Source: Aeromicrobium sp.
GTDB taxonomy: Bacteria > Actinomycetota > Actinomycetes > Propionibacteriales > Nocardioidaceae
NCBI GenBank assembly: GCA_023257515.1
Contig: JALRCA010000243.1
Coordinates: forward strand, 1 to 59,838
DNA: 59,838 bases
Direction: 5' to 3'
In this document: one piece after another, positions 4,628-20,215 of the stretch
Layout: each line of letters begins with the position of its first letter
Numbering within the stretch: position 1 is the first letter of the stretch
Notes under the pieces: model-generated
Seen by the model: only the letters and a program-made list of their open reading frames with translations
Database searches by the model: none
What the model was told of the DNA's origin: nothing
Position numbers and translations under genes: made by a program

Positions 4628-5473
4628 GTGTCGATCGGGCCCTACCTCGCCGCCAGCACGTGGGGCGCCAAGCGCGGTCCGTACTTCTTCCGTCGCGTCC
4701 TCGACACGGGCCGCACGGTGCGCGTCGTCCTGCTGCTCGTGGCGGTGTCCGTCTTCAGCGCGCCGTGGACGGCGTTGTGGGTCTATCTCGTGGCGACCGG
4801 GGTGCCGCTCGGCTCGCTCATGATGGGGCTCGCCGGCCTGAGCGGCTACGCGGTCGTCGCCGACGGGATCGCACGCTGGTGGTGGCACCCGCGCTCGACC
4901 TCGGGACCCGTGGTCACGACGGCACCGAGCGGTCGTCCGGCCACGGCCTGGCTGCGGTCGGGCGGCGCCCTCGTGCGGCCGGTCGCGGTCACCGTGGTGT
5001 TCGTGGTCCTCGCCGTCGGCGAGGTGGTGGCGTCGTTCGTCGGCGACCGGATGTGGGGACTGATCGGGGCGGCGGTGCTCGTCGCTTTCACGGCCTGGTT
5101 CGCCTGGCCGCTGCTGCTCGGCCGCGCGCGGGCCGGCGGCCTGTACCTGACCGAGCACGGTGTCGAGCACGTGTGGGGGTCGGACCGGGCGGACGTGCCG
5201 TGGGAGGCCGTCCAGCTGACGTCTCCCGTGCTGCCGCTCGGTCTCTCGCGGCACCCGCTCGCGCAGCGCGACAAGGGTGGCTGGCAGGTGTGGGACGTCC
5301 CGGACCGGCTGATCGGCAGCGACGACGTGCCCGTCCCGTCGGCCTACCTGACGGACCACGCCGAGGCTGTCCGCGCGGTCGTGCACCGCTTCGCCGTCGA
5401 CCCCCGCACGCGGTCGGCGCTGGGAACGCCGCAGTCGATCGAGTGGGCCCGCAGATGGAGAACGGGCGGATGA
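4628..5473 (+). CDS. Hypothetical integral membrane protein
   Basis: 281 aa from a GTG preceded by GGGGAC. Hydrophobic stretches near residues 32-60 (VVLLLVAVSVFSAPWTALWV), 60-80, 115-140 (VAVTVVFVVLAVGEVVASFV) and 145-165 indicate about four membrane helices. The C-terminal 110 residues are soluble (LYLTEHGVEHVWGSDRADVP) and resemble a PH-like/regulatory beta domain, but no family is recognised. It is divergent from pxpA with a short shared upstream region. Confidence 0.75.
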   Translation: MSIGPYLAASTWGAKRGPYFFRRVLDTGRTVRVVLLLVAVSVFSAPWTALWVYLVATGVPLGSLMMGLAGLSGYAVVADGIARWWWHPRSTSGPVVTTAPSGRPATAWLRSGGALVRPVAVTVVFVVLAVGEVVASFVGDRMWGLIGAAVLVAFTAWFAWPLLLGRARAGGLYLTEHGVEHVWGSDRADVPWEAVQLTSPVLPLGLSRHPLAQRDKGGWQVWDVPDRLIGSDDVPVPSAYLTDHAEAVRAVVHRFAVDPRTRSALGTPQSIEWARRWRTGG

Positions 5474-5512
5474 CAGCGCGCCGTAACGCAAGTCAGCCCT
5501 CGCCTTGACGGA

Positions 5513-5719
5513 CTACTTGTTCTTTGAGCCGTATGGAGACTGATTGGTTGGTTTCAAGGTCGTGTCCTGCTTCGATGCCTGACCACGAATCGAGTCCTCG
5601 GTGCGGCCCATCTTGAGACCGATGACTCGCGTCGGCGTGTTGCCTTTCGCGAGCTCCTTCAGCTGTTTCCGATCGGCGGAAGTCCACGGCTTTCCGTGAT
5701 TCTTCGGGGTCTTTGCCAT
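5513..5719 (-). CDS. Small basic SANT/Myb-like protein
   Basis: 68 aa, strongly basic. WTSADRKQLKELAKGNTPTR followed by VIGLKMGRTEDSIRGQAS looks like a short helix-turn-helix (SANT/Myb-like) unit of the kind found in widespread small bacterial proteins of unknown role. It is probably nucleic-acid binding; this is inference from the fold pattern. The gene is visibly lower in GC than its neighbours, as is the whole 5.5-6.9 kb patch, suggesting transfer. A small hairpin (CCGCGC/GCGCGG, 5746-5762) lies in its 5' leader. Confidence 0.7.
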   Translation of the reverse strand: MAKTPKNHGKPWTSADRKQLKELAKGNTPTRVIGLKMGRTEDSIRGQASKQDTTLKPTNQSPYGSKNK

Positions 5720-6003
5720 AGTCAGGTCCTCCCTGGAGGCTCAAGCCGCGCGTCCTGCGCGGGGATTTCAAGACTAGGAACTGGCTCGGACACTTTTGAG
5801 CGGAGACTAGAGGCAGGTCGTCAAACGGCGAATCGGACCAAGATGTTGAGGCGTTACGAGCGGTGGCCGAGGGCCGGACGTACGGCCGATCGGCACGTGG
5901 CGCCAAATGTCAGCGGCGCTAGCTAGCCTTCGAAGACGCTACTCGACCGCTGTATCGCCCCGCAGTCGAGCTTGGACGAACTTTGCGAAAGAGCGGAGAC
6001 CTC

Positions 6004-6639
6004 ATGGCGCCCACGTCGATCAATAGCTTGTTGATCTTCCTGCTCTTCGTCGTCCCTGGCTTCGTGTACCAGACGATGCGCATCTCAGTCAGAGGCCGTC
6101 TTCCACTCGACCTCGAATTGTCAACTCGCATCGTCAGGGCCGTAGTCACGTCCGGAATCTTCGGGCTGGTGTATCTGGCGATCTTGGGCGATGTTCTGAT
6201 CGAGACGGCAAGAGGAACGGGGGACGCCGTAAATCATCCGCGGTTGGGGGCCGTTCTTGCTCTTCTCGGGGGGATAGTCGTACCTGCCGCTCTCGCGCTG
6301 ATCCCGGCTCCGAACTGGAAATGGTTCTTGGCGATTCAAGAGAGGTTGCCTCAAGTAGCGAGGTACGACTTGACCCCAACGGCCTGGGACAAGGCGTTCC
6401 AGTCCGCCGAAGAGTGCTTCATCCGGATTCTTACAAACGATGACCGCTGGATCGCGGGCTACTACGGATCGTCCTCCTACGCGACTTCCTTTCCGGAGGA
6501 TCACCAGCTCTTCTTGGAGCGGGCGTTTGAGGTTGAAGCCGACGGCACGATCGGATCCGAGGTCGAAGGAACAAGTGGGGTCATCATCAATTGCACCGAG
6601 ATACAGTTGCTTCAGTTGCTAACCCCGGTCGAATCCTGA
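6004..6639 (+). CDS. DUF6338-like membrane protein
   Basis: 211 aa. The N-terminus SLLIFLLFVVPGFVYQTMRI plus two further hydrophobic helices (about residues 45-68 and 80-100) matches DUF6338 proteins, which have an N-terminal membrane region with a PGF motif and a soluble C-terminal half. The soluble part includes TPTAWDKAF and ends with a WxxGYYGSSSYATSFPEDHQLFLE block that is likely beta-rich. The ATG at 6004 is preferred to an in-frame ATG at 5983 because it puts the first helix at the N-terminus. Low GC compared with flanking genes. The stop is followed after 13 bp by a small ORF, so the two are probably cotranscribed. Function unknown. Confidence 0.75.
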   Translation: MAPTSINSLLIFLLFVVPGFVYQTMRISVRGRLPLDLELSTRIVRAVVTSGIFGLVYLAILGDVLIETARGTGDAVNHPRLGAVLALLGGIVVPAALALIPAPNWKWFLAIQERLPQVARYDLTPTAWDKAFQSAEECFIRILTNDDRWIAGYYGSSSYATSFPEDHQLFLERAFEVEADGTIGSEVEGTSGVIINCTEIQLLQLLTPVES

Positions 6640-6652
6640 GGAGTTGAGGTTC

Positions 6653-6835
6653 ATGGCAAAGCGGCTCCCCCCGGCGGGTAGCGGCTACTCCGGACGGTCT
6701 GCAGCGTCCGGCCGGTACGTGTCAAAGTCAGCGATGCGCAAGGGCGCGGCTGGGACGAGTAGGTCGAGTGCGCCGAACCGAGTTGGTGGGGCCACCCCGC
6801 CGAAGGGTTCCGGCGGGGTGACCCGTGCCAAGTAG
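6653..6835 (+). CDS. Small hypothetical protein, DUF6338 companion
   Basis: 60 aa, Ser/Gly/Arg-rich and basic (GSGYSGRSAASGRYVSKSAM), lacking hydrophobic segments. It starts 13 bp after the DUF6338-like stop with a GAGG-like site upstream. Short proteins with GRYVSKS-type motifs occur next to mobile accessory genes; the role is unknown. A 9-bp hairpin (CACCCCGCC/GGCGGGGTG, 6793-6820) overlaps its 3' end and may act as a terminator. Confidence 0.5.
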   Translation: MAKRLPPAGSGYSGRSAASGRYVSKSAMRKGAAGTSRSSAPNRVGGATPPKGSGGVTRAK

Positions 6836-6946
6836 TACCAGCGACTCTAGTCCGGGTCGGCGGCAATCCACCCAGTCTTCAGGGCCGGAACTGACTCACG
6901 GTTGGAAGCCGCCGTCAGGTTCTGCCGGTACACCGAAGGCGAGTGA

Positions 6947-7869
6947 CTAGAGGCCGAGCAGGTCCGACGCCTCCTCGCGCATCTGCACCTTGCGCACCTT
7001 GCCGGTGACCGTCATGGGGAACTCGTCGACGACGTGGACGTAGCGCGGGATCTTGTAGTGAGCGAGCTTGCCGGTGCAGAACGCGCGCAGCGACTCGGCC
7101 GTCAGCGGCTCGGCGCCGTCGCGCATGCGGATCCACGCCATGAGCTCCTCGCCGTACTTCGCGTCGGGTACGCCGATGACCTGTGCGTCGAGCACGTCGC
7201 CGTGGGTCAGCAGGAACTCCTCGATCTCGCGCGGGTAGATGTTCTCGCCGCCTCTGATCACCATGTCCTTGATGCGCCCGGTGATGCTCAGGTAGCCGTC
7301 GGCGTCCATGACGGCCAGGTCGCCGGTGTGCATCCAGCCTTCGGCGTCGATCGCCTCGGCGGTCTTCTTCGGCTCGTCCCAGTAGCCGATCATCACGGAG
7401 TACCCGCGCGTGCAGAGCTCGCCGGCCTCGCCCCGCGGCACCGCGTCACCCGTCACCGGGTCGACGACCCTGACCTCGAGGTGCGGGTGCACGCGCCCGA
7501 CCGTCGCGACGCGCCGCTCGACCGTGTCGTCGGTACGGGTCTGCGTCGAGACCGGTGACGTCTCGGTCATGCCGTACGCGATCGACACGTCCTCGGCGCC
7601 CATGCGATCGATGACCTGCTTCATGACCTCGACCGGGCACGGCGACCCGGCCATGATGCCGGTGCGCAGGGCGGACAGGTCGTGCTCCTCGAACGAGGGG
7701 TCGTTGAGCATCGCGATGAACATCGTCGGCACGCCGTAGAGCGAGGTGCACCGCTCCTCGGCCGTCGCGCGCAGCGTCGCGGCCGGGTCGAACGCCGGTG
7801 CCGGGATGACCATCGTCGCCCCGTGCGTCGTGGCCGCGAGGTTGCCCATGACCATGCCGAAGCAGTGGT
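6947..7869 (-). pseudogene. Fatty-acid-CoA ligase (AMP-binding), C-terminal part, split by integration
   Basis: About 305 codons of an acyl-CoA synthetase, beginning at ...H-C-F-G-M where the host gene meets the integrated element. It contains [18 protein letters not shown] (adenine-site loop), [17 protein letters not shown], the hinge/A8 motif [20 protein letters not shown], and a [10 protein letters not shown] segment with the C-terminal catalytic Lys. The matching N-terminal 231 codons lie at 14480-15175 on the same strand. Joining them at the shared AGTGGT gives [14 protein letters not shown] and a protein of about 536 aa, normal for the family. There is no internal stop or frameshift, so the disruption is recent or reversible. 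An internal ATG at 7855 could in principle start a fragment. Confidence 0.9.
7864..7869. other. attL core (shared AGTGGT)
   Basis: Left copy of the 6-bp identity between element ends. On the minus strand it spans the end of a CAC (His) codon and the first base of the TGC (Cys) codon of the split acyl-CoA synthetase. Serine integrases need only a 2-bp crossover dinucleotide, so the exact cut point inside these 6 bp is not determined. Confidence 0.75.
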
Positions 7870-7883
7870 GCTTAGTGCAGAAT

Positions 7884-7895
7884 GGTCATATGACC
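7884..7895. promoter_or_regulatory. 12-bp perfect palindrome over the integrase start codon
   Basis: GGTCATATGACC is fully self-complementary and contains the integrase ATG (7890-7892). It lies only 15 bp inside attL. It may be an operator or part of the integrase attachment-site arm; it may also be chance. No Shine-Dalgarno sequence is visible ahead of the start. Confidence 0.4.
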
Positions 7896-9386
7896 GAAAG
7901 AGACGCCGAGCAGCACGAGCGCACCGAGGCGGCAGGCATGGCCGTGGGGGTGTACGCCCGCATCAGCAGGGACGACACGGGCGACGCGCTCGGAGTCGCA
8001 CGTCAGATCGAGGACTGCGAGGCCCTGGCCGCGCGCAATGGCTGGCAGGTGCGCGAGCACTACGTGGACAACGACGTCAGCGCGTCCAAGGCCGTGCCAC
8101 GCCCTGAGTACCAGCGCCTCCTGGCCGACCTACAGCGCGGCGTCATCAGCGGACTGGTGGTCTATGACCTCGACCGACTCACCCGCAAGCCTGCCGAACT
8201 AGAGCACATCATCGAGTTGGCCGACGCCCACCGGTTCACGCTCGCGAACGTCTCGGGCGACGTCGACCTCATCACCAGCAACGGGCGGATGCTGGCCCGC
8301 ATCAAGGGCGCGGTGGCTCGCCAGGAAGCGGACCGCATCGGCGAGCGCGTCAAGCGCCAGAAGCACCAGCGCGCCCAGCGCGGGGAGTACCAGGGCGGGC
8401 GCTATCGGCTCTACGGGTACACCCGCGACATGGACGTCATCGAGGCTGAGGCCGAGGTGGTCCGCGAGGCGTTCGCCCGTAGGGCGGCGGGGGAGTCGAC
8501 GCGCTCGATTGCTGCCGACCTGGCGGCGCGCGGCCTGACCACGGTCACCGGCGGCCCGTTCAAGGCGTCGAGCGTCGACCACCTGCTACGCAAGGCCGCC
8601 TATGCCGGACTGCGCGAGTATCGCGGCGAGGTCGTGGGGCGGGGGCGGTGGGCCGCCATCGTGACCGAGGACGACCTGGCGGCGTGCCGGGAGGCGATGC
8701 GGGTCAGCGCACAGCGCGAGGGCCACAACGAACGCAGGCACCTGCTCAGCGGCCTCCTGCGCTGCGGTGTGGTGCTCGACGAGGCCCAGGAGGGGCGGGC
8801 ATGCCGCGCGCCGCTGTCTGGTTCTCACCGGGCCATCAACGGCGGCGAGAAGCGCACCCGCTACGCCTGTGCGGCAGGAGGTCACAGCCTGTCGACCTAC
8901 GCCGAGTGGGTCGAGACGCTGGTCGTCGGCTACGTCCTCGACCAGCACGCGCGCAGGCTCGACCAGCCCGCGGACGCCGACGCCGTCAAGGCCGCGCGCG
9001 AGGTCGAGGACGCCCTGGCCGACATCGAGTCGCTGTGGGCCCGCTACCGAGCCGGGGAGGTCCCTGACGCCCGCTTCGAGCGGATGCTGGACGCCAAGGA
9101 GGCCCGGCTGCGCCGAGTCGAGCAGCAGGCCCCGCGTCGCCGCCGGTTCGACCACCTCCTCGCGCAACGGCAGTGGTCTGACCTCAATCTCGGCGAGCGG
9201 CGCGGGCTCGTGGCTCAGTACGTCGACTCCGTGACGCTGCTCCCAGGCCGGGGGGAGCACCACACCCGCCTGCGCATCCACGGCACGGACGGCACGACCA
9301 CGGTGCCCACGAGCACGTCAGGGACCGTGGCGGGGGCGCCGGTCGCCAACGAGCAACTGGTGCGCATGGCCCTGGGCAGGGCGTGA
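7890..9386 (+). CDS. Large serine recombinase (integrase)
   Basis: 498 aa. The catalytic domain holds VYARISRDDTG with nucleophile Ser26 and the DRLTR motif (VVYDLDRLTRKPAELE) at about residue 95. A recombinase domain follows (GRYRLYGYTRDMDVIEAEAE; about residues 165-280), then a zinc-ribbon-like segment (LLSGLLRCGVVLDE...CRAPL...RYACAAGG) with three Cys and one His, then a coiled-coil region near 370-420. It catalyses site-specific integration/excision between attP and the acyl-CoA synthetase attB. The gene starts 20 bp from attL with no clear ribosome site, so its own promoter is probably not next to it in the integrated state. A perfect 16-bp hairpin follows the stop. Confidence 0.95.
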   Translation: MTERDAEQHERTEAAGMAVGVYARISRDDTGDALGVARQIEDCEALAARNGWQVREHYVDNDVSASKAVPRPEYQRLLADLQRGVISGLVVYDLDRLTRKPAELEHIIELADAHRFTLANVSGDVDLITSNGRMLARIKGAVARQEADRIGERVKRQKHQRAQRGEYQGGRYRLYGYTRDMDVIEAEAEVVREAFARRAAGESTRSIAADLAARGLTTVTGGPFKASSVDHLLRKAAYAGLREYRGEVVGRGRWAAIVTEDDLAACREAMRVSAQREGHNERRHLLSGLLRCGVVLDEAQEGRACRAPLSGSHRAINGGEKRTRYACAAGGHSLSTYAEWVETLVVGYVLDQHARRLDQPADADAVKAAREVEDALADIESLWARYRAGEVPDARFERMLDAKEARLRRVEQQAPRRRRFDHLLAQRQWSDLNLGERRGLVAQYVDSVTLLPGRGEHHTRLRIHGTDGTTTVPTSTSGTVAGAPVANEQLVRMALGRA

Positions 9387-9388
9387 GT

Positions 9389-9427
9389 GTCAAGTCCCCG
9401 TCTCGATCGAAGAGACGGGGACTTGAC
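9389..9427. terminator. Perfect 16-bp hairpin after the integrase gene
   Basis: Arms 9389-9404 (GTCAAGTCCCCGTCTC) and 9412-9427 are perfectly complementary with a 7-nt loop. It begins 2 bp after the integrase stop codon. There is no U-tract, as usual for high-GC Actinobacteria. It probably separates integrase transcription from the downstream operon. Confidence 0.8.
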
Positions 9428-9535
9428 AAGGATGCGCAGCCGTGCATTCAAGTTCTGCTATCCTGCTACTGACGGAACGGGCGGCTAGAGTCGCCCCAGC
9501 CGGGCAAGCGCCCGCACCGCACTGACCAGTCGGTC

Positions 9536-9560
9536 TGTCACTTGGCGAGACGCCGTGACA
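9536..9560. promoter_or_regulatory. Inverted repeat upstream of the xis-like gene
   Basis: TGTCAC (9536-9541) pairs with GTGACA (9555-9560), with an inner GGCG/CGCC pair. It lies 29 bp before the start of the Xis-like gene, at the expected place of a promoter or operator for the element's main operon. A hairpin in the leader is equally possible. Confidence 0.4.
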
Positions 9561-9589
9561 TCCCCTTCCGACTGGTTAGGAGCACCATC

Positions 9590-9793
9590 GTGCCGAACCC
9601 CCCAGCGCCATCCGAGCGCTATCTCTCTCCCGCCGAAGTGGCCGAAATGCTTGGCCTCACGACGCGCAGTGTCTACACCCACGTGGCCGAGGGCCGACTA
9701 CCTGCCTCTCGCCTCTCGCGCAAAATGCTGCGCATCGCCGAGTCGGACGTGCACGCGTTCGTGGCCGCGCGCCGCATCGGGGCGACGGCATGA
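9590..9793 (+). CDS. Excisionase/AlpA-like helix-turn-helix protein
   Basis: 67 aa. The sequence SPAEVAEMLGLTTRSVYTHV followed by AEGRLPASRLSRKMLRIAES is a winged HTH of the MerR/excisionase (HTH_17) type covering the whole protein. It should bind DNA as a recombination directionality factor or as the operon regulator. The GTG start is chosen because AGGAG lies 7 bp upstream; an earlier in-frame start would run through the inverted repeat. Its stop overlaps the next gene's ATG by 4 bp. Confidence 0.85.
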   Translation: MPNPPAPSERYLSPAEVAEMLGLTTRSVYTHVAEGRLPASRLSRKMLRIAESDVHAFVAARRIGATA

Positions 9794-10008
9794 CCGCCGC
9801 CGACGTCCGCTACGGCCCGCACGCACGCCGCACGAACCGCACGCCGATCAGCCTCGCCGAGGCTGCCCGTCGGCTCGACACGGGCGTGGACGGCGTCTGG
9901 GCGCTCATCGCGGCGGGCCAGATCCCGCGGCACAGCGTCATCACCTGGAACGGCGTCCTCAGCCTGCCGCCCCGTTACGTCCAGCGCCTCGTCGAGGCCG
10001 CTCGATGA
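9790..10008 (+). CDS. Small hypothetical protein, possible second HTH
   Basis: 72 aa in an ATGA overlap with the Xis-like gene. TPISLAEAARRLDTGVDGVW then ALIAAGQIPRHSVITWNG has the spacing of a degenerate HTH_17 (helix, turn, helix, wing), so it may be a DNA-binding partner of the preceding protein. No known family is recognised. It belongs to the element's plus-strand operon. Confidence 0.6.
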   Translation: MTAADVRYGPHARRTNRTPISLAEAARRLDTGVDGVWALIAAGQIPRHSVITWNGVLSLPPRYVQRLVEAAR

Positions 10009-10101
10009 CGCGCAGCGACGGCGCCGAGAACCACCTCAGCGCCGCCACCCGTTCTACCTACACCCAGCCGTCTGACCACCGGCACCACACCGGAGGTCAC
10101 C

Positions 10102-10425
10102 GTGACGAGTACGCGCACGCCATCGTCGGCATCTACGCCGATTCTAGCCGCCTCGACCCTTGGCGACGCGGTCCGCGAGGCGGAAGCCGCAGTCACCGCG
10201 GAGCGCTGGCACGGCTGCGCGTGCTGGGACTCCCCACGGCTCGACCGGTGCTCGTCAGCGGAGCACGCCGTGCTCTGGACGAGGGCCAGGCTCGCCCGGC
10301 TCGAATCGGTGCGGCACATCGCCGAGGTGGTCCGCGAGGCGCTGCCGACGCTCCGGCCGGACGACGTCGCGCGCCTCGTCGAGATGAGCACGCCGCCGCC
10401 GTTCCCGGGGGTGCGCGATGAGTGA
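10102..10425 (+). CDS. Hypothetical protein of the integrated element
   Basis: 107 aa. GGAGG at 10092-10096 sits at ideal distance from the GTG at 10102. The C-terminal half is helical (RLESVRHIAEVVREALPTLR, PDDVARLVEMS); the middle has a Cys-containing WHGCACWDS. No family recognised. It overlaps the next ORF by 8 bp (ATG at 10418). A competing frame from ATG 10005 exists but has poorer composition. Confidence 0.55.
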   Translation: MTSTRTPSSASTPILAASTLGDAVREAEAAVTAERWHGCACWDSPRLDRCSSAEHAVLWTRARLARLESVRHIAEVVREALPTLRPDDVARLVEMSTPPPFPGVRDE

Positions 10426-10729
10426 GACCTGGGACGACTTCCTGGCCCGCACGGGCGCCGTGCTCTATCGAGGTCGCACCGAGGCCGAAGTGCTGGCTGA
10501 GCGGAACGACCCGTGTCTGCTCGACGTGACGGACGCCGAGCCGACAGACGCCGCGAGCCTTCGCGCCGACATCGAGCGCGAGCAGCAGGTGGCACGAGAG
10601 CGGATCGACGCGTTCTACCGCACCGCCGCGGGACGGGACCTCCTGCTCGACCTCGCCGACCGGTACGACCGCGCCGGGGATGCCGAAGCGCTCGCCGAGG
10701 TCGTCGCCCGACTTGGGGAGGCCCAGTGA
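10418..10729 (+). CDS. Hypothetical protein of the integrated element
   Basis: 103 aa, acidic and predicted helical (SLRADIEREQQVARERIDAF, LLDLADRYDRAGDAEALAEV). It begins inside the end of the preceding gene and its own stop overlaps the GTG of the ATPase gene (GTGA), so it is translationally coupled to both. No domain is recognised. The position just ahead of a RecA-like ATPase suggests a replication or regulation accessory role, which is inference only. Confidence 0.6.
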   Translation: MSETWDDFLARTGAVLYRGRTEAEVLAERNDPCLLDVTDAEPTDAASLRADIEREQQVARERIDAFYRTAAGRDLLLDLADRYDRAGDAEALAEVVARLGEAQ

Positions 10730-11814
10730 CCACGCCCAGCCTTGAGGAGTTGCGTACCCGCCTCGCCGTGCTGCGCGCAGCGCACGAGGCCGAGCGTGCC
10801 GCCGAGGCCCAGGCCGCTGCCCGGCGCACGGAGCGACAGCGTCAGGCCCAGGTGGCCGCACGCTACCTGGGAGCGCAGATCCCGCTGCCTGTGCCGCCGT
10901 CCGTGGACTGGTCGAGCGAGTGGGACAAGGCTCCCGAGGAGACGGAGTGGCTGGCCGAGCCGCTGGTGCCTGCTCGGCGCTCAGTCTCGATCTACTCGGC
11001 GCCGAAGGTCGGCAAGTCGCTGATCCTCCAGGACATCGCGGCGTCGCTGGCAGCCGGGCGCGGCGTTCTGGGAGGACCAGCCCGCGCGCCCCTGTCGGTC
11101 CTGTACGTCGACCTGGAGAACTCGCTGCATGACGACGTGATCCCCCGACTCAAGGCGATGGGACACGAGCCCGCCGACCTGGAGCGCCTGCACTACCTGT
11201 CGTTCCCAGACCTCGCCGCGCTCGACTCCCCGGCGGGCGGCGAGCAGATCATGCGCGCGGTCGCGACGTACGACGCCGATCTGGTCGTGGTCGACACGAT
11301 GAGCCGCACGCACGACGGCGAGGAGAACAGCAACGACACGTCGCTGGCCTGGCACCGCTACACCGGCGCCCGGCTCAAGGCGGCGGGCGTGGCCCTCGTG
11401 CGGCTCGACCACTCCGGCCACGAAGGCAGCCACGCGCGTGGCGCATCGGCCAAGGCTGGCGACGTGGACGCGATCTGGTCCCTGACGAAGGTCGACGACA
11501 CCCACGTGCGGCTGAAGTGTGACGACGCCCGGTTCGTGTTCGCCGAGAACGACCTCACGCTGGAGCGCGTCGCCGAGCCTCACCTGCACCACAAGGTCGT
11601 GCCCAGGCCGTCGTCCCACGTCATTGCCGCGACGAAGGAGACCGAGCGCGTCGAGGCGCTGGACGCCTCAGACCTCGACCCGGCCACGGCCTCGATGCGC
11701 GACGCCAAGGCCCACCTACGAGAGGTCGGCCTGCGCGGGAAGGACGAGCACTTGCAGACCGCGATCCGGGTGTGGAGGCAGCGCCACGGACACGCCGACG
11801 AGGACCAGTCGTGA
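10726..11814 (+). CDS. RecA/RepA-like AAA ATPase of the integrated element
   Basis: 362 aa. A helical N-terminus (residues 5-50) precedes the ATPase core. The Walker A SAPKVGKS lies at about residues 91-98; LSVLYVDLENS is the following strand; the Walker B LVVVDTMSR is near residue 190, followed by VALVRLDHSGHEGSHARGAS. This is the hexameric RepA/DnaB-like or RecA-like family used by plasmids and phages as a replicative helicase or loader. A short C-terminal domain (residues 300-360) is HTH-like (ASMRDAKAHLREVGLRGKDE). It probably drives replication of the excised element. A structured 324-bp non-coding region follows. Confidence 0.85.
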   Translation: MTTPSLEELRTRLAVLRAAHEAERAAEAQAAARRTERQRQAQVAARYLGAQIPLPVPPSVDWSSEWDKAPEETEWLAEPLVPARRSVSIYSAPKVGKSLILQDIAASLAAGRGVLGGPARAPLSVLYVDLENSLHDDVIPRLKAMGHEPADLERLHYLSFPDLAALDSPAGGEQIMRAVATYDADLVVVDTMSRTHDGEENSNDTSLAWHRYTGARLKAAGVALVRLDHSGHEGSHARGASAKAGDVDAIWSLTKVDDTHVRLKCDDARFVFAENDLTLERVAEPHLHHKVVPRPSSHVIAATKETERVEALDASDLDPATASMRDAKAHLREVGLRGKDEHLQTAIRVWRQRHGHADEDQS

Positions 11815-12138
11815 GCCGCCGGAGCGTATCCCGAGAGGCCCAGATCGGCTACACGTCCGGGATTCACGATTTCGGCTGGCGTTCCAGGCCATCCGGCAGG
11901 TGTATCCCCCGTATCGGGGGGAGCGCTAGCGACCCCCGAGGGGACACGCCGTCGGTGGCGCCACGGGGATTCGAATCCTCAGCGAATCCCCCCTGTGGTC
12001 CTCCCCTAGAAGCACCACCCCCCCCAGAACTCACGAGCAGATCGGAGCACCGAGCGCGGCAGCAGGTCGCGCACATGGCTAGCCCACGCAGCCGAGGACC
12101 AGCCCTCTGGCCCTCACCCACTACCGAAGGAGCACACC
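11815..12138. other. Structured intergenic region of the element (possible origin, packaging site or ncRNA)
   Basis: 324 bp with no convincing gene, between the ATPase and the coiled-coil gene. It holds a short hairpin CCCCCG-TAT-CGGGGG (11906-11920), the palindromic AGCGCTAGCG nearby with flanking GGGGG/CCCCC, a 9-bp perfect stem GGGGATTCG/CGAATCCCC (11965-11973 with 11983-11991) extended by CCAC/GTGG, and C-runs further on. A replication origin next to the replication ATPase, a terminase-recognised pac/cos site, or a structured RNA are all possible. GAAGGAG at 12125-12132 is the ribosome site for the next gene. Confidence 0.45.
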
Positions 12139-13152
12139 GTGCCCGAGCCCCAGCAGAACGACACCACCAGCACCGAGGTGCTGCCCACCCTGACCGTCGT
12201 CGAGGACGGCGCGCAGTCGACCCCCAGGGCGAGGCCCACCGACGGATTCGCCGACCTCGGCCTCAGCGGCAGCCCGCACGACTACGAGACGCCCAAGGCG
12301 CCGTGGGTCCCGCTCGGCGAGCGCCCGAAGCGCGCGCCCCGTCCCGGCCTGACCGCCGCGTCGCCGCTGCTCGAAGCGGTCGAGGACTGGCACAGCGCGT
12401 TCGAGTCCGAGGCCATCGCGCAGGCCGACGCCGACCTGCGCGGCGCCGTCGAGGCCGCGAACGACGCCGCCGGGCGCCTCAAGTTGGCCGACCGCGAGCA
12501 GCGCGACGAGCCGGGCCAGCGCGCCGCGGCCATCTCGGCGGGCCGGGAGGCTGCCCCCGCGACTGACTGGACGGTCGAGCGCGCGCTGCGCGGCAAGGCC
12601 TGGAACGAGACGTACGCCGCCGCCCAGGCTGCGCAGCGCGAGTACGTGCGCATCGTGCAGGAGGAGGCCCACCGCCTCATCGGCAAGGTTCGTGAGTCCG
12701 CGGCGGTCGAGCGCGCCAAGGCTGAGAAGGCGCTCGAGAAGGCTCGAGGCCAGGTGGCCCGCGCGGTGCTCGCGTCCGAGGCGATCAATCGATACGCGAA
12801 GAAGGTCGGCGCCCTGAAGCGTGATGGCCTGTGGCGCACGAAGGACGCCGGAGCCCTCGGGGCGGTCCTGCCGTCGCTTGACCAGGCGCTCGACCTGCTG
12901 AGGACGATCGACCGCGACCCGGTGCTGAACGGCGACCTGCTCGACGACCCGAAGCCTGCTCAGGTGCCCGAGGTCACCCGCGATGCCCTGTGGGCCTCCC
13001 GTCGCCAGTCCGACCTCGGGAAGCTCGAAGCGATCGAGACCTACGAGGAGCGCACCGAGGGCGTCAAGCGCCTCTCGCACCGCAGCCCCGCGCAGTCGCG
13101 GTACGCCCCGCAGGACGTCGCCGCTCGGCTGCGTGAAGGCCTCCTGCCGTGA
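12139..13152 (+). CDS. Coiled-coil hypothetical protein of the integrated element
   Basis: 337 aa from GTG with GAAGGAG upstream. Residues 1-70 are low-complexity and Pro/Thr-rich; residues 85-250 are long Ala/Glu/Arg helices (AAQAAQREYVRIVQEEAHRL, ERAKAEKALEKARGQVARAV) typical of coiled coils. There is no transmembrane segment or enzymatic motif. It may be a structural, scaffold-interfering or DNA-binding protein of the element; no family is recognised. Confidence 0.65.
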   Translation: MPEPQQNDTTSTEVLPTLTVVEDGAQSTPRARPTDGFADLGLSGSPHDYETPKAPWVPLGERPKRAPRPGLTAASPLLEAVEDWHSAFESEAIAQADADLRGAVEAANDAAGRLKLADREQRDEPGQRAAAISAGREAAPATDWTVERALRGKAWNETYAAAQAAQREYVRIVQEEAHRLIGKVRESAAVERAKAEKALEKARGQVARAVLASEAINRYAKKVGALKRDGLWRTKDAGALGAVLPSLDQALDLLRTIDRDPVLNGDLLDDPKPAQVPEVTRDALWASRRQSDLGKLEAIETYEERTEGVKRLSHRSPAQSRYAPQDVAARLREGLLP

Positions 13153-13206
13153 CCTAGAGCCACGCAGGCAGCGGCCCGGGCCGGAGTGACGCCCGGCAGC
13201 CTGCGG

Positions 13207-13238
13207 CCAGCACGGCGGCGTCTCCTACGCCGTGCTGG
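13207..13238. terminator. 11-bp perfect hairpin
   Basis: CCAGCACGGCG (13207-13217) pairs with CGCCGTGCTGG (13228-13238), 10-nt loop. It lies 55 bp after the coiled-coil gene and ahead of the next ribosome site (AAGGAG, 13270-13275), so it may end or attenuate the upstream transcript. Confidence 0.65.
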
Positions 13239-13282
13239 TTCGGGCCGCCCCCGAATCCCCCGACAATCGAAGGAGCCACATC

Positions 13283-13639
13283 GTGGCCAGCAGATGGGAC
13301 AGCGCGAAGCGCCCCCGAGTCTCGACGTACACCCCCACGCCCATCCCGCAGCACCTCGCGGCGCCGATCATCTCCGACTTCGTGAACCGAGACGAGGCCC
13401 AGCACCACGGCTGGCCCTCTCCCGCCGAGGTGGACGTGCAGACCTGGCGCGACATCCGCCACCCGCTCGTCCGACTCGCGAGGAAGCGCCACGCCGCCGC
13501 CGTGCTGAAGTGGCGCGCGCAGATACAGCGCGATGCCCAGTACCCCGACGACGAGGCCCTGAACCGGCGGCTCGGCTCGTCGGCCATCTGGCCGCGTCTC
13601 GACCGTGAGGCCCACCAGCGGCACGAGGTCGTGGCATGA
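13283..13639 (+). CDS. Hypothetical protein of the integrated element
   Basis: 118 aa from a GTG with AAGGAG 7 bp upstream. It is basic and Trp-containing (WPSPAEVDVQTWRDIRHPLV, RKRHAAAVLKWRAQIQRDAQ), without hydrophobic segments. It overlaps the small-terminase start by 4 bp (ATGA), so the two are coupled and this protein may act in packaging. No family recognised. Confidence 0.6.
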   Translation: MASRWDSAKRPRVSTYTPTPIPQHLAAPIISDFVNRDEAQHHGWPSPAEVDVQTWRDIRHPLVRLARKRHAAAVLKWRAQIQRDAQYPDDEALNRRLGSSAIWPRLDREAHQRHEVVA

Positions 13640-14022
13640 GCGCCTCGCCGAGGCCCAGGGCGCCCCGCGGGCTCGGGCGCAGTGGCAAGCGCCTGTGGTC
13701 CTCGATCGTCGAGCAGTTCGACCTCGCCACGCACGAGCAGATCCTGCTCGCCGAGTTGTGCCGCGTGGCGGACCGGCTGGACCTCATCGCCGACGCCATG
13801 AAGGACGCGCCGCTGACCGTGGTGAACACCAAGGGTGACGAGGTCGCGCAGCCGCTGCTCGTCGAGGCCCGCCAGCAGGGCATCGTCTACGCGCGACTCA
13901 TGGCCGCGCTGCGCCTGCCCGACGACGCCGTGGACGCCGAGGGCGACGGCGAGCAGGTGTCGAGGCCACAGCGTCGCGGCGGCGCACGAGGCGTTTACGG
14001 GATCCGTGGAGTCGTCCAGTGA
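13636..14022 (+). CDS. Phage terminase small subunit, P27-family-like
   Basis: 128 aa. The order GLGRSGKRLWSSIVEQFDL, then THEQILLAELCRVADRLDLI, then VEARQQGIVYARLMAALRLP follows the P27-type small terminase pattern (basic N-terminus, helical DNA-binding domain, acid/Arg helix ending in ALRLPD). Small terminases recognise the packaging site and recruit the large subunit. No large subunit is encoded in the element, as in phage satellites that redirect a helper phage's packaging motor. Its last bases overlap the next ATG-less ORF (AGTGAGG), implying coupling. Confidence 0.75.
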   Translation: MSASPRPRAPRGLGRSGKRLWSSIVEQFDLATHEQILLAELCRVADRLDLIADAMKDAPLTVVNTKGDEVAQPLLVEARQQGIVYARLMAALRLPDDAVDAEGDGEQVSRPQRRGGARGVYGIRGVVQ

Positions 14023-14270
14023 GGCGCCGCGCGGCCGCAGCGCGACCGCTCACCGAGGCCGAGCCGCCGCCCCAGCACCTCGTCGACCCCACGGTGGACT
14101 ACTGGTGCCCCGAGCACCTGCGAGGCACGGAGAGCGCCAGGCAGGCTGCACAGGACGCCTGGCAGGCCGCCTACGACGCCTGGGGGCCCTCGATCGAGGG
14201 CCAGATGCTCCCTCGCGAGTACGTGACGTGGGCTCGTCGCGCGTCGGTCGGCGCGATCATCGTGCGCTGA
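14019..14270 (+). CDS. Hypothetical protein, last gene of the element
   Basis: 83 aa, GTG start overlapping the terminase stop (GTGA). It contains DYWCPEHLRGTESARQAAQD and a Trp-rich helix (AWQAAYDAWGPSIEGQMLPR). The single Cys-Pro-x-His motif is too little for a zinc site. No family known. A strong hairpin starts 12 bp after the stop. Confidence 0.55.
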   Translation: MRRRAAAARPLTEAEPPPQHLVDPTVDYWCPEHLRGTESARQAAQDAWQAAYDAWGPSIEGQMLPREYVTWARRASVGAIIVR

Positions 14271-14281
14271 GCCTGGACCCC

Positions 14282-14326
14282 GAGCGCCCTGGGATTGCTG
14301 AGATTTCTTCGGCACCCGGGGCGCTC
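14282..14326. terminator. Terminator hairpin at the end of the element operon
   Basis: GAGCGCCCTGGG (14282-14293) pairs with CCCGGGGCGCTC (14315-14326), 12 bp with one G.U. It follows the last gene of the element by 12 bp. The 155 bp from here to attR hold no gene; in the circular form they would lie directly upstream of the integrase. Confidence 0.75.
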
Positions 14327-14479
14327 TCATGCGTTCCGTGAGGCCCAGAATCAGGGCGTGGGGTCGCCGGGACCCGGGACGGTTCAGGTCGCGGTGCTGC
14401 TCGCTCGCTATGCGATACGGTCCCCTGCGTTTCACGAGGCCGGGGGACCCTCCCCCCGTCTATTACGGTGCGTTGCTAT

Positions 14480-15175
14480 CTAGTGGTAGAAGGGCACGGG
14501 GATGCAGATGCGGTCGTCCTGCGTGTAGTCGATGAGCTCGCCCACGAAGTACCCGTTGTTCAGGATGTTGCGGTGCGAGAGCGTCGCGCCCTTGGGGAAC
14601 CCGGTCGTGCCCGACGTGTACTGGATGTTGATCGGGTCGGTCGGCTCGAGACCGGCCTCGATCGCGGCCAGGTCCGTGTCGTCGTCGCGGCCGGCGGCCA
14701 CGAGCTCGTCCCACGACGCCTCGCCGATCAGCACCACGTCCTGCAGCGTCGGGTTGTCGGGACGGACCTCGTCGATCATGTCGGCGAACGACGAGCCCTT
14801 GAAGTCGCGGACGGCCACGATCGTGCGCATGCCGGACTGCCGGACGACATAGCCGAGCTCGTGCGCGCGATAGGCCGGGTTGACGTTGACGAGGATCGCG
14901 CCGAGCCGCGCCGTCGCGTACTGGATGACGGTCCACTCCGCGCAGTTGGGCGCCCAGATGCCGACGCGGTCGCCCTTCGTCACGCCGAGCGTGGCGAGTC
15001 CCCGCGCGACGGTGTCGACGTCGGCGAGCAGCTCGCGGTAGCTCCAGCGGCGACCGGTGGCGCACTCGACGAGCGCCTCGTGGTCGCCCATGCGCTCGAC
15101 GGTCGCGACGAGATCGGCGCCGATCGTGGTCTCCAGCAGGGCGACGTCGGTGTTGCCGGCGGTCGTGCTGTCCAT
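14480..15175 (-). pseudogene. Fatty-acid-CoA ligase (AMP-binding), N-terminal part, split by integration
   Basis: 231 codons ending at PVPFYH followed at once by a TAG that is created at the element junction. It contains GRRWSYRELLADVDTVARGL and the phosphate-binding A3 motif YTSGTTGFPKGATLSHRN near the end. The remainder is at 6947-7869. Start ATG 15175 is preferred to GTG 15181 because AAGGGG lies at proper spacing only for the ATG. On its own this half lacks the adenylate-forming C-terminal domain and should be inactive. Confidence 0.9.
14482..14487. other. attR core (shared AGTGGT)
   Basis: Right copy of the 6-bp identity, inside the TAC-CAC codons of the N-terminal half of the acyl-CoA synthetase. 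Distance to the left copy is 6618 bp. Flanking bases outside the core differ between ends, as expected for attP versus attB half-sites of a serine integrase. Confidence 0.75.
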
Positions 15176-15335
15176 GTCCACCCCTTCGTGCGGGGAACGT
15201 GACCCCCGTCACGCTCCAGCCTGCCACGGGTGACGTTGCTGCTTCGCAGCGCGCCCGCAGCCGATCCGCAGGACCGGGCGGCACCGTGGTGCGCAGAGCC
15301 CGGTCGGGGGACCGGGCGGATCGGGGGATCGAGAG

Positions 15336-16079
15336 ATGTCAACGTCCACGCGCCTCGGCGCACGACTCGTGGCGCTCGTCGGCGCCGTCGCGTCGCTGCT
15401 GCTCGCGGTCACGCCGGCACACGCCGCGGCCCAGGTGACGATCGCGACGCACAACACCTGGCACGGCAAGGCCGAGTTCCGGCCGCTCGCGGACGTGATC
15501 GGCTGGCAGGAGGTCGACACCGCCGCCGGCCACCGCAAGCTCGACGCGCTCTCGGGCTACGCGACCTACCGTCCTCGGCAGGCCGAGGGGGCAGCCGCGG
15601 CCGCGAACGCCGTCCCGATCTCGTGGAAGCGCTCGGTGTTCGACAAGACCGGGTCAGGCTTCGTGCGCACGCACGCGGGCGAGGCCGGCGTCACGCCCGC
15701 ACGCTTCGTGACGTGGGTCGTGCTCAAGCACCGCGAGTCGGGCCTGAAGCTCGGGTTCGTCAACACCCACTACATCAGCGGCGCGTGGAGCGGGAAGCCC
15801 GAGCGCCAGGAGCGCTGGCTGCAGCACAACCGCGAGGTCACCAAGGTCGTCGCCGACCTGAAGGCGCGCGGCATCACCACGGCCCTCGTCGGCGACTTCA
15901 ACCGCCACCTCGCCCAGGGCTCCACGTTCGGTCTCGAGCGCTTCGCCACACCGCAGGCCGGGACCGTGCCCTACGACCAGCTCTACGTCACGAGGGGCCG
16001 CACCATCGGCCAGGCCGAGCGTCTGCAGAAGTTCGGCTCCGACGTCCACTACGCGTGGCGCGCCCGCGTCCAGCTCTGA
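15336..16079 (+). CDS. Secreted endonuclease/exonuclease/phosphatase-family protein
   Basis: 247 aa. A Sec signal peptide (residues 1-30, LVALVGAVASLLLAVTPAHA with cleavage after AHA) precedes an EEP/DNase I-like fold: THNTW (metal Asn), GWQEVD (metal Glu), FVNTHYISG (catalytic His), LVGDFNRH (Asp/Asn) and a C-terminal SDVHYAW. It should hydrolyse phosphodiester or phosphomonoester bonds outside the cell; the substrate is not readable. It is followed 43 bp later by a secreted M23-type protein. Confidence 0.85.
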   Translation: MSTSTRLGARLVALVGAVASLLLAVTPAHAAAQVTIATHNTWHGKAEFRPLADVIGWQEVDTAAGHRKLDALSGYATYRPRQAEGAAAAANAVPISWKRSVFDKTGSGFVRTHAGEAGVTPARFVTWVVLKHRESGLKLGFVNTHYISGAWSGKPERQERWLQHNREVTKVVADLKARGITTALVGDFNRHLAQGSTFGLERFATPQAGTVPYDQLYVTRGRTIGQAERLQKFGSDVHYAWRARVQL

Positions 16080-19399: not shown

Positions 19400-20040
19400 G
19401 CCTGACCCACCGGCCAGCTCGAAGTTCCCTGCCGTGAACAGCCAGCCCCAGTGCGCCAGAGCAGGCCGATGGAGCGAGGGGCGACGGGGGGCGGTCGTGC
19501 GGAGGGCGGCACCGCAGGTGCCGGATCGCCCGGCGAACGGCTCGGGCACGATCGCGACGCCGAGTCCGGCGGCCACGAGTCCCTCGATCGTCGCGAGGTC
19601 CTGGCTCTCGAACGACACGGGGAGCTGACCCCGTTGTCGCGGAGCAAGTCGCCGACGAAGGGGCGGAAGTCGAATGCCACCGGCGTCGTGACGATCTCCT
19701 CGTCCGTCAGTTCTCCGATGTCGACGTGTCGACGGCTGGCCAGCCGTCGACAGGGCGGGACCACGAGCACCAGACGCTCGTCCTGAACGTGCGTCAGCCC
19801 CACGGACCGTCGGGCGGCGCCGACGTGACGGCCACGCCGACGGTTCCCGATTCCAAGTCGGCGAGAATGTCGTGCGCCGGCTCCTGGCTCAGCTGAACCC
19901 GGGTACCGGGCGACGCTTGGTGGGAGCCGCGCAGCAGGTCCGGCACGAGCGAGGTCGCCAAAGACTCGAGGAACGCGAGCCGCACCAGTCCGCGCAGGCC
20001 GGACGAGAGCCGCGGCCGGTGACCATGCATGTCGGCGGCG
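19400..20040 (-). pseudogene. LysR-family regulator remnant (effector domain only, two frameshifts)
   Basis: Reading on the minus strand, pieces of one LysR substrate-binding domain appear in three frames: LVRLAFLESLATSLVPDLLR...LADLESGTVGVAVTSAP (to about 19797), LTHVQDERLVLVVPPCRRLA...TTPVAFDFRPFVGDLL (to about 19615), then ESQDLATIEGLVAAGLGVAI-VPEPF. The N-terminal HTH is absent and the sequence before about 20040 does not resemble it. This is a truncated, decayed gene. Boundaries are approximate. Confidence 0.75.
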
Positions 20041-20215
20041 GGGGTCGTTCTAGTGAGCGCGGAGGGCCGACGCCGCGCGCACGGGTGCAACGCGCACGTC
20101 GCGACCGGGGTCAGGTGCTTCGCGATGAGCACCTTCGCGCGCGGCGTCGCGGATCGCCTCGAGGGGAAAGTCTTTCTGCGTGTGGCGGCCAGGGCCCGAA
20201 TACACTTGTCGTCAG

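Follow-up and report, generated by a model that had tools for sequence, protein, structure and literature searches.

A putative phage satellite with a lone small terminase gene in the acyl-CoA synthetase gene of an Aeromicrobium genome

What kind of mobile element encodes an integrase, a replication-type ATPase and a small terminase subunit (TerS), with no large terminase (TerL) or capsid gene beside them? The question is raised by a 6,618-bp element in a stretch of 59,838 nucleotides (hereafter the window) from Aeromicrobium sp. (positions 1 to 59,838 of contig JALRCA010000243.1; genome G000, assembly GCA_023257515.1, 288 contigs, 87.7% complete). An initial annotation had likened it to a phage-inducible chromosomal island (PICI); its gene set supports a PICI-like way of working but not membership in the PICIs. 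The element is probably a PICI-like phage satellite that would redirect the HK97-type packaging motor of a helper phage. The locus shows an exact integration, its own integrase (Int) and excisionase (Xis), an ATPase of replicative type and a TerS without a TerL, but nothing recognisable as a structural or conjugation gene.

The element interrupts a minus-strand acyl-CoA synthetase gene, splitting it into a C-terminal part (6947-7855) and an N-terminal part (14480-15181). Used as a query, the C-terminal part matched 32 of 49 Aeromicrobium genomes at 1e-60. Besides the window, 18 matches were 70-87% identical; 17 of these had loci (from 17 genomes) and were aligned to both flanks, the 18th having no locus. 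By blastn, the left flank aligns up to 7869 in 16 of the 17 homologues and to 7867 in one, the right flank aligns from 14482 in all 17, and the flank alignments overlap by a 6-bp core, AGTGGT. The insertion site is empty in all 17 aligned homologues, and these intact loci bear out positions 7864 and 14487, given in the initial annotation, as the exact att ends. The rejoined site is identical to attB of Streptomyces phage R4 at 44 of 50 bases and to the Amycolatopsis counterpart of that attB at 47 of 52 (both from the primer table of PMC6549336); the Amycolatopsis site lies inside a fatty-acyl-CoA synthase gene (PMC6549336). An own integrase at a specific att site is a PICI trait, present here as exact junctions, a 6-bp core and a phrog_95 integrase. 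As read from these alignments, the element is integrated at an R4-type attB by its own serine integrase. The best matches of this integrase in phage records are 30-42% identical and the R4 integrase is not among the best 15 of 58, so common descent with it is not established.

Ten open reading frames (ORFs), all intact and all on the plus strand, make up the element. Families were assigned with Pfam, PHROG and NCBIfam profiles, and the features are, in order:

7864..7869, no strand: att core AGTGGT, left junction (flank blastn against 17 intact loci)
7890..9386, plus strand: large serine integrase, 498 aa (PF00239 1.1e-31, PF07508 2.1e-13, phrog_95 4.7e-87)
9590..9793, plus strand: Xis/AlpA-type helix-turn-helix (HTH) protein of the HTH_17 kind, 67 aa (PF12728 3.1e-13, TIGR01764 2.9e-10)
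9790..10008, plus strand: second HTH-like protein, 72 aa (PF12728 7.5e-4, weak and below cut-off)
10102..10425, plus strand: 107-aa protein of no convincing family, intact ORF
10418..10729, plus strand: 103-aa protein of no convincing family, intact ORF
10726..11814, plus strand: AAA_25 RepA-like ATPase, 362 aa, probable replication protein (PF13481 7.2e-26, phrog_906 2.7e-19)
11815..12138, plus strand: structured non-coding gap, 324 bp, candidate replication origin (fold and two CGAATCCCC copies)
12139..13152, plus strand: 337-aa helical protein with a homologue in a second Aeromicrobium element; as a guess, an assembly or packaging adaptor
13153..13282, no strand: non-coding gap, 130 bp, possible packaging or regulatory site suggested by position (third CGAATCCCC copy)
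13283..13639, plus strand: 118-aa protein of no family, intact ORF overlapping the start of terS
13636..14022, plus strand: small terminase subunit TerS, 128 aa (phrog_1496)
14019..14270, plus strand: 83-aa protein overlapping the end of terS, with counterparts after terS in two other Aeromicrobium elements
14482..14487, no strand: att core AGTGGT, right junction, at the N-terminal part of the split gene (flank blastn)

The serine integrase, Xis-like HTH protein and ATPase of the initial annotation are confirmed by profiles (phrog_95, TIGR01764 and PF13481, respectively), and the excisionase/AlpA-type regulator has both PF12728 and TIGR01764 above their cut-offs. The match of the ATPase to phrog_906 (primase/polymerase) covers residues 28-265. 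No convincing match to TerL, portal, capsid, tail, relaxase or TraB/FtsK families was found among the ten proteins with any of the three profile sets, in agreement with the claimed lack of large terminase, portal, capsid and tail genes; the PICI trait of a terS without other virion genes was found in the same search. The 107-, 103-, 337-, 118- and 83-aa proteins have no convincing Pfam, PHROG or NCBIfam family and the 72-aa protein only weakly resembles an HTH protein. The claim of at least six unrecognised small genes therefore stands for five without a family and, loosely, for a sixth, except that the 337-aa protein is not small. One weak PHROG "spike protein" match (E 0.31) and two weak matches between the Xis HTH and terminase HTHs (E 0.018 and 0.044) are regarded as noise. 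The 337-aa protein is modelled as long helices at low confidence (predicted local distance difference test, pLDDT, 59) and matched itself and one further protein (7.2e-4) in 396 Actinomycetota genomes. At 1e-20 in 198 related genomes, the ATPase matched itself and a protein of G033; its 12 pattern stretches in IMG/VR yielded no confirmed match, and neither the ATPase nor TerS had a useful match to the PDB by sequence.

Traits of several known classes are missing from the ten proteins. The own capsid, portal and terminases of capsid-forming PICIs were not found, nor was a TraB/FtsK-type translocase as in actinomycete integrative and conjugative elements. The traits of the phage-inducible chromosomal minimalist islands (PICMIs) are absent, the site being an acyl-CoA synthetase gene and not fis, and DUF3987/DUF5906 being unmatched in the Pfam search. 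P4-like satellites are marked by Psu, Delta, Sid and alpha-protein; these names are absent from the Pfam and PHROG matches, with no dedicated P4 models run.

TerS belongs to phrog_1496 (E 2.4e-21). The NCBIfam P27 model falls below its cut-off (E 0.048), so the designation "P27-type" in the initial annotation rests on the PHROG and structure matches. An AlphaFold model made with 16 relatives has a mean pLDDT of 81; 77 of its 128 residues reach 90 or more, and the tail is disordered. In a structure search of BFVD it gave eight matches at E <= 0.001 (best 3.4e-6), and nine of the first ten matches are named small terminases, the other being nameless. Foldseek against the PDB returned nothing at E <= 0.001, the HK97 TerS entries having E values of at least 1.4 and a target template modelling score of up to 0.54. 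Structure prediction, proposed earlier as a check, thus upholds the assignment: the 128-aa protein models as a small terminase. Close relatives of this TerS have in common an RPQRRGxARGxYG tail, and the TerS of the element keeps the full conserved core and the tail. An Rfam s2m match inside terS (E 0.16, far below gathering) was taken as chance.

Is the lone TerS peculiar to this genome? The phrog_1496 TerS occurs in three of 49 Aeromicrobium genomes, namely that of the window, Aeromicrobium flavum (G007) and another Aeromicrobium genome (G034, locus L104). All three TerS-bearing elements are small, their integrases differ, and no TerL or capsid gene was read in them. Genome-wide searches for TerL covered one family, phrog_9, in the G-numbered genomes and L016-L021, and included no portal profile. 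The whole A. flavum and G034 genomes gave neither a phrog_9 TerL (at E <= 1e-5) nor a phrog_10 capsid (at E <= 1e-3), and the TerL matches of the window's genome lie only on contigs C77 and C232, not in the element. The G034 element (L104 8731-14652) has a tyrosine integrase (phrog_1 4.4e-57) and an HTH protein (phrog_8 0.0087, weak), then, divergently, xis, a small HTH protein, a 546-aa AAA_25 protein (4.3e-18) and a 356-bp gap. Next come a 336-aa protein homologous to the 337-aa one (phmmer 5.3e-14), then TerS, then a 92-aa protein that corresponds to the 83-aa one (phmmer 0.0016), so that helical protein, TerS and small protein stand in the same order in both elements. The A. flavum element has a tyrosine-type integrase (read by eye) and has TerS and the small protein in common with the window (hhalign 92.7% probability); its 394-aa upstream protein has no detectable homology to the 337-aa protein. 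The 337-aa protein has no significant homology to the upstream proteins in the elements of A. flavum, G260, Streptomyces and Kocuria, so that outside G034 only position is common to them. An HTH protein occupies the integrase-side repressor place in G034 (the weak match above) and, by eye, in L019 and L021.

Beyond the genus, a TerS alignment (A2) scanned against 84,980 species genomes gave 166 pattern stretches and 12 confirmed loci. No adjacent TerL was read in the seven closest (L016-L022, 47-58% identity), which come from one metagenome-assembled genome, three Streptomyces, two Kocuria and A. flavum. Whole-genome searches found no phrog_9 TerL for L016, L017, L019, L020 or A. flavum; the L018 genome has two, on other contigs, and the L021 genome has one about 37 kb away. 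Contig ends cut L016, L020 and G260 (L010) near terS, leaving one side unseen. In each of the five remoter loci (L023-L027, 28-38%), a phrog_9 TerL immediately follows TerS (E 3.3e-42 or better), and the scan thus finds ordinary prophages where they are present. Relatives with terL, portal or capsid genes beside terS had been named as the sign of a degraded prophage; the three Aeromicrobium elements and the seven closest loci have no adjacent TerL. Some more distant TerL-less members do carry one or a few virion genes, with a capsid in L013 and L029 (major capsid protein, by profile) and in the Mycolicibacterium record JSForest2, and a tape measure in L018. A tblastn search of 21 structural proteins against 16 loci gave self matches and a tape-measure fragment in L016 only. 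It missed the L018 tape measure and the L013 and L029 capsids, and tblastn with eight TerLs missed those of L023-L027; because profiles found all of these, the tblastn negatives are given little weight. Against IMG/VR, the single TerS sequence gave 60 pattern stretches, none confirmed, and alignment A2 gave 33.

By eye, L016-L019 and L021 each read as an element with a tyrosine integrase, small HTH proteins and genes for replication. The L018 ATPase is AAA_25, and that of L019 shares phrog_906 and phrog_6357 with the window ATPase. Read by eye, two further serine-integrase elements lie at tadA-like genes: that of G089 (L012, 10045-16983), inside such a gene and holding a weaker TerS (39%), and that of G033 (L014, 4203-9445), beside one and with an AAA_25-like protein. 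Several of these loci hold other genes next to terS. In L018 (S. flavochromogenes, 10638-15443) a 1,601-aa tape measure stands beside the lone TerS, no other tail genes being read nearby; the fragment in L016 (10399-10654) follows TerS and resembles the tape measure of JSForest2; and in the Kocuria element L019 an HNH endonuclease (9323-9760, phrog_333 4.8e-30) lies just before the lone TerS. JSForest2 itself (L005, OR387116.1, 1-11036) is an 11-kb Mycolicibacterium "phage" with TerS, capsid, scaffold, adaptor, stopper, tape measure and serine integrase. It has no phrog_9 TerL, its annotation lists neither portal nor TerL, and it appears to be a satellite recorded as a phage. The Streptomyces plasmid pSM17B (L015, NZ_CP029340.1), assembled as a tandem dimer, has TerS at 5061-5405 and 19756-20100.

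We placed 26 TerS sequences in a tree, 15 without and 11 with an adjacent TerL (ten of these TerLs recognised by profile, annotation or blastp, that of L032 by eye only). The TerL-adjacency label needs four changes on this tree, fewer than expected by chance (2 of 500 shuffles were as low), and a single origin of the lone TerS is neither shown nor excluded by these sequences. In four pairs, not all independent, a crude Nei-Gojobori estimate of the ratio of nonsynonymous to synonymous substitution rates (dN/dS) for lone TerS is 0.16, 0.05, 0.16 and 0.22.

The non-coding gaps offer candidates for an origin and a packaging site. The structured non-coding region described in the initial annotation is borne out, as none of 100 shuffles folds as well as gap 11815-12138 (z -4.05). 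PICIs have a primase-type replication initiator with its origin behind it; the element has in that place an AAA_25 ATPase without a primase domain, with a structured gap behind its gene that may or may not act as an origin. The three copies of CGAATCCCC in the window all lie in gaps of the element (two in 11815-12138, one in 13153-13282), which is weak evidence because the motif was chosen after being seen. The G034 gap holds five iteron-like copies of TGAGCGGGT. A conserved non-coding block with CCCTGAAACG[CA]TCCC lies between the upstream gene and the lone terS in L016 and in four Streptomyces elements, one of them on a plasmid and three chromosomal. It starts at about 9838 in L017, 9857 in L018 and 9850 in L021, lies near 5517 on the minus strand in L015, and occupies 9536-9551 in L016. 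Among seven whole genomes searched, the pattern occurs once per genome, at the element, in the hosts of L016, L017, L018 and L021, and its reversed control occurs in none. The block is a candidate TerS/cos site or promoter. Gap 13153-13282 does not match it, and the 81-base block and the candidate origin have no match in phage records. Fifty-eight IMG/VR stretches with the Streptomyces 15-mer were taken as chance because they hold no TerS-like ORF.

Which phage might serve as the helper? The phages L028, L030, Mendokysei and Footloose have a TerS of the phrog_1496 family just before TerL, and phages pair this TerS family with phrog_9 TerLs. The host has two phrog_9 TerLs, on C77 (2.1e-50) and C232 (3.1e-25), both near portal-, capsid- and tail-like genes (by eye). 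The C77 TerL is 29-30% identical to those of L030 and L031, whose TerS is of the satellite's family, and the gene before it matches phrog_226, labelled minor tail protein. On contig 232 (L103, 2241-4283), HNH and TerL matches fall in one continuous ORF of the resident prophage region. The only phrog_10 capsid match of the genome is on contig C3. On sequence grounds the C77 and C232 regions are plausible helpers. Elsewhere in the window, positions 5501-7000 have a guanine-plus-cytosine content of 0.59-0.61 against about 0.70 around them. A 218-aa ORF lies there, upstream of the split gene, and the stretch is possibly another acquired segment.

By analogy with PICI biology, as outlined in PMC6092414, the satellite would work as follows. 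Once a helper phage was growing in the host cell, the element would be excised by its Int and Xis. The AAA_25 ATPase would act at an origin in the gap behind its gene, and host or helper replisomes would copy the element. Its TerS would then mark the element DNA and pass it to the HK97-type (phrog_9) large terminase of the helper, and satellite DNA would thereby fill the helper's capsids. The two proteins that accompany TerS, the 337-aa helical one and the 83-aa one, probably modify how the helper is assembled or packaged (capsid size or TerS-TerL contact). This is the least certain step, and a scaffold-like or capsid-size role for the 337-aa protein is guessed from the way it is paired with TerS.

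Several observations weigh against a satellite of this kind. A host prophage with a matching terS, which the initial annotation had suggested looking for, was not found: neither host TerL region has a TerS of the element's family, and the assembly, at 87.7% completeness, holds no second one (next match E 0.2). No primase domain was found in the ATPase with Pfam, and no divergent integrase-side repressor (Stl/Rpr) family was recognised, all ten genes being on the plus strand. The fold of the G034 gap is not unusual (z -1.79) and its sequence has no similarity to the window gap; the CCCTGAAACG[CA]TCCC 15-mer is not in the window's, G260 or L019 genomes. The lone TerS rows do not form one clade, phage rows L028 and L030 falling among them, and dN/dS between the window and G260 TerS is 0.51, uninformative at that distance. 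Induction, excision, the helper and packaging are, in this analysis, proposals.

The position of phage rows L028 and L030 would suit a temperate phage in which integration, replication and terS were kept by chance after the structural genes had gone, as would the existence of phages with the element's TerS family and the ten related phage rows with an adjacent TerL. Against such a degraded prophage stand the TerS-bearing elements of Aeromicrobium, three in number, which use different integrases and all lack TerL, and the helical protein, TerS and small protein shared with G034. The expected traits of a degraded prophage, virion remnants and broken ORFs, were not found among the ten intact ORFs, and lone TerS is under purifying selection in the four pairs, all of which makes this origin quite unlikely. 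We regard as very unlikely that an integrative element spread by conjugation or mobilisation, or a phage-interference island using TerS as a packaging decoy, accounts for the locus. A related TerS (55%) does sit on pSM17B with TraA, TraB and primases, possibly a conjugative element with a satellite packaging module, and a TraB-like ORF lies about 1 kb past terS in L017 (by eye only). The element itself has no TraB/FtsK or relaxase family, its matches to defence genes are weak (best E 0.0071), and its TerS is complete in core and tail.

The PICI-like satellite may also belong to something larger, a reading on which we are almost evenly divided and lean slightly to the negative. A widespread, modular actinobacterial satellite lineage would keep a constant HK97-type TerS (RPQRRGxARGxYG tail) between the helical and small proteins and swap integrases (serine or tyrosine), regulators and replication genes. 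Some members would travel on conjugative plasmids, with two transfer routes, some would carry a single virion gene (tape measure or capsid), and the Streptomyces block before terS would be a packaging site read by TerS. The lone TerS would offer a further search marker for satellites. PICI-style packaging hijack would be brought into the actinobacterial phylum, with satellite TerS and helper phrog_9 TerL as a testable pair, and the integrase, with its R4-type attB, lends itself readily to tests in standard Streptomyces hosts.

Among known systems, Streptomyces phage R4 also has its attB in a fatty-acyl-CoA synthetase gene, but is a full phage, and kinship of the integrases is not established. 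MulchRoom and MiniFlayer of Streptomyces are likewise actinobacterial phage satellites, but encode both terminases, portal and capsid, with helpers presumed virulent; MulchRoom has a tyrosine integrase and MiniFlayer no lysogeny module (as described in PMC10690885). The PICMI of Vibrionaceae resembles the element in its size of about 6 kb, minimal gene set, AlpA/HTH_17 regulator and lack of capsid remodelling genes, but sits at fis with a DUF3987/DUF5906 primase, and the word "terminase" is absent from the main text of PMC10803314. The candidate PICIs of Mycobacterium are actinobacterial and some have a serine integrase, but in the account of PMC10654092 they contain a major capsid protein by definition, which the element lacks. 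In the JSForest/Maddie records (Mycolicibacterium aichiense), the TerS of JSForest2 is 42% identical and a phrog_9 TerL is absent from it, but these records carry capsid and other virion genes, of which the element has none. The claim of an undescribed family with a serine integrase must be narrowed accordingly, as serine-integrase satellites of actinobacteria have precedents in both groups, albeit precedents with capsid genes. At the level of titles and abstracts in the open literature, we found no description of capsid-less lone-TerS satellites in actinobacteria. The Mycobacterium survey would miss this type because its candidates were defined by integrase plus major capsid protein (PMC10654092), and according to a prophage survey many actinobacterial elements below 15 kb are assumed to be satellites, with experimental validation lagging (PMC10023795). 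Compared with PICIs, the element differs in its serine integrase, its AAA_25 ATPase without primase, its lack of a recognised repressor, its actinobacterial host and a helper that is so far only proposed. The G034 relative is PICI-like in its divergent int-regulator and xis-rep arrangement (as outlined in PMC6092414). With the PICIs that carry terS, such as the Staphylococcus aureus pathogenicity islands (SaPIs), the element shares its size class, its own integrase and xis, a replication protein, and a terS without other virion genes.

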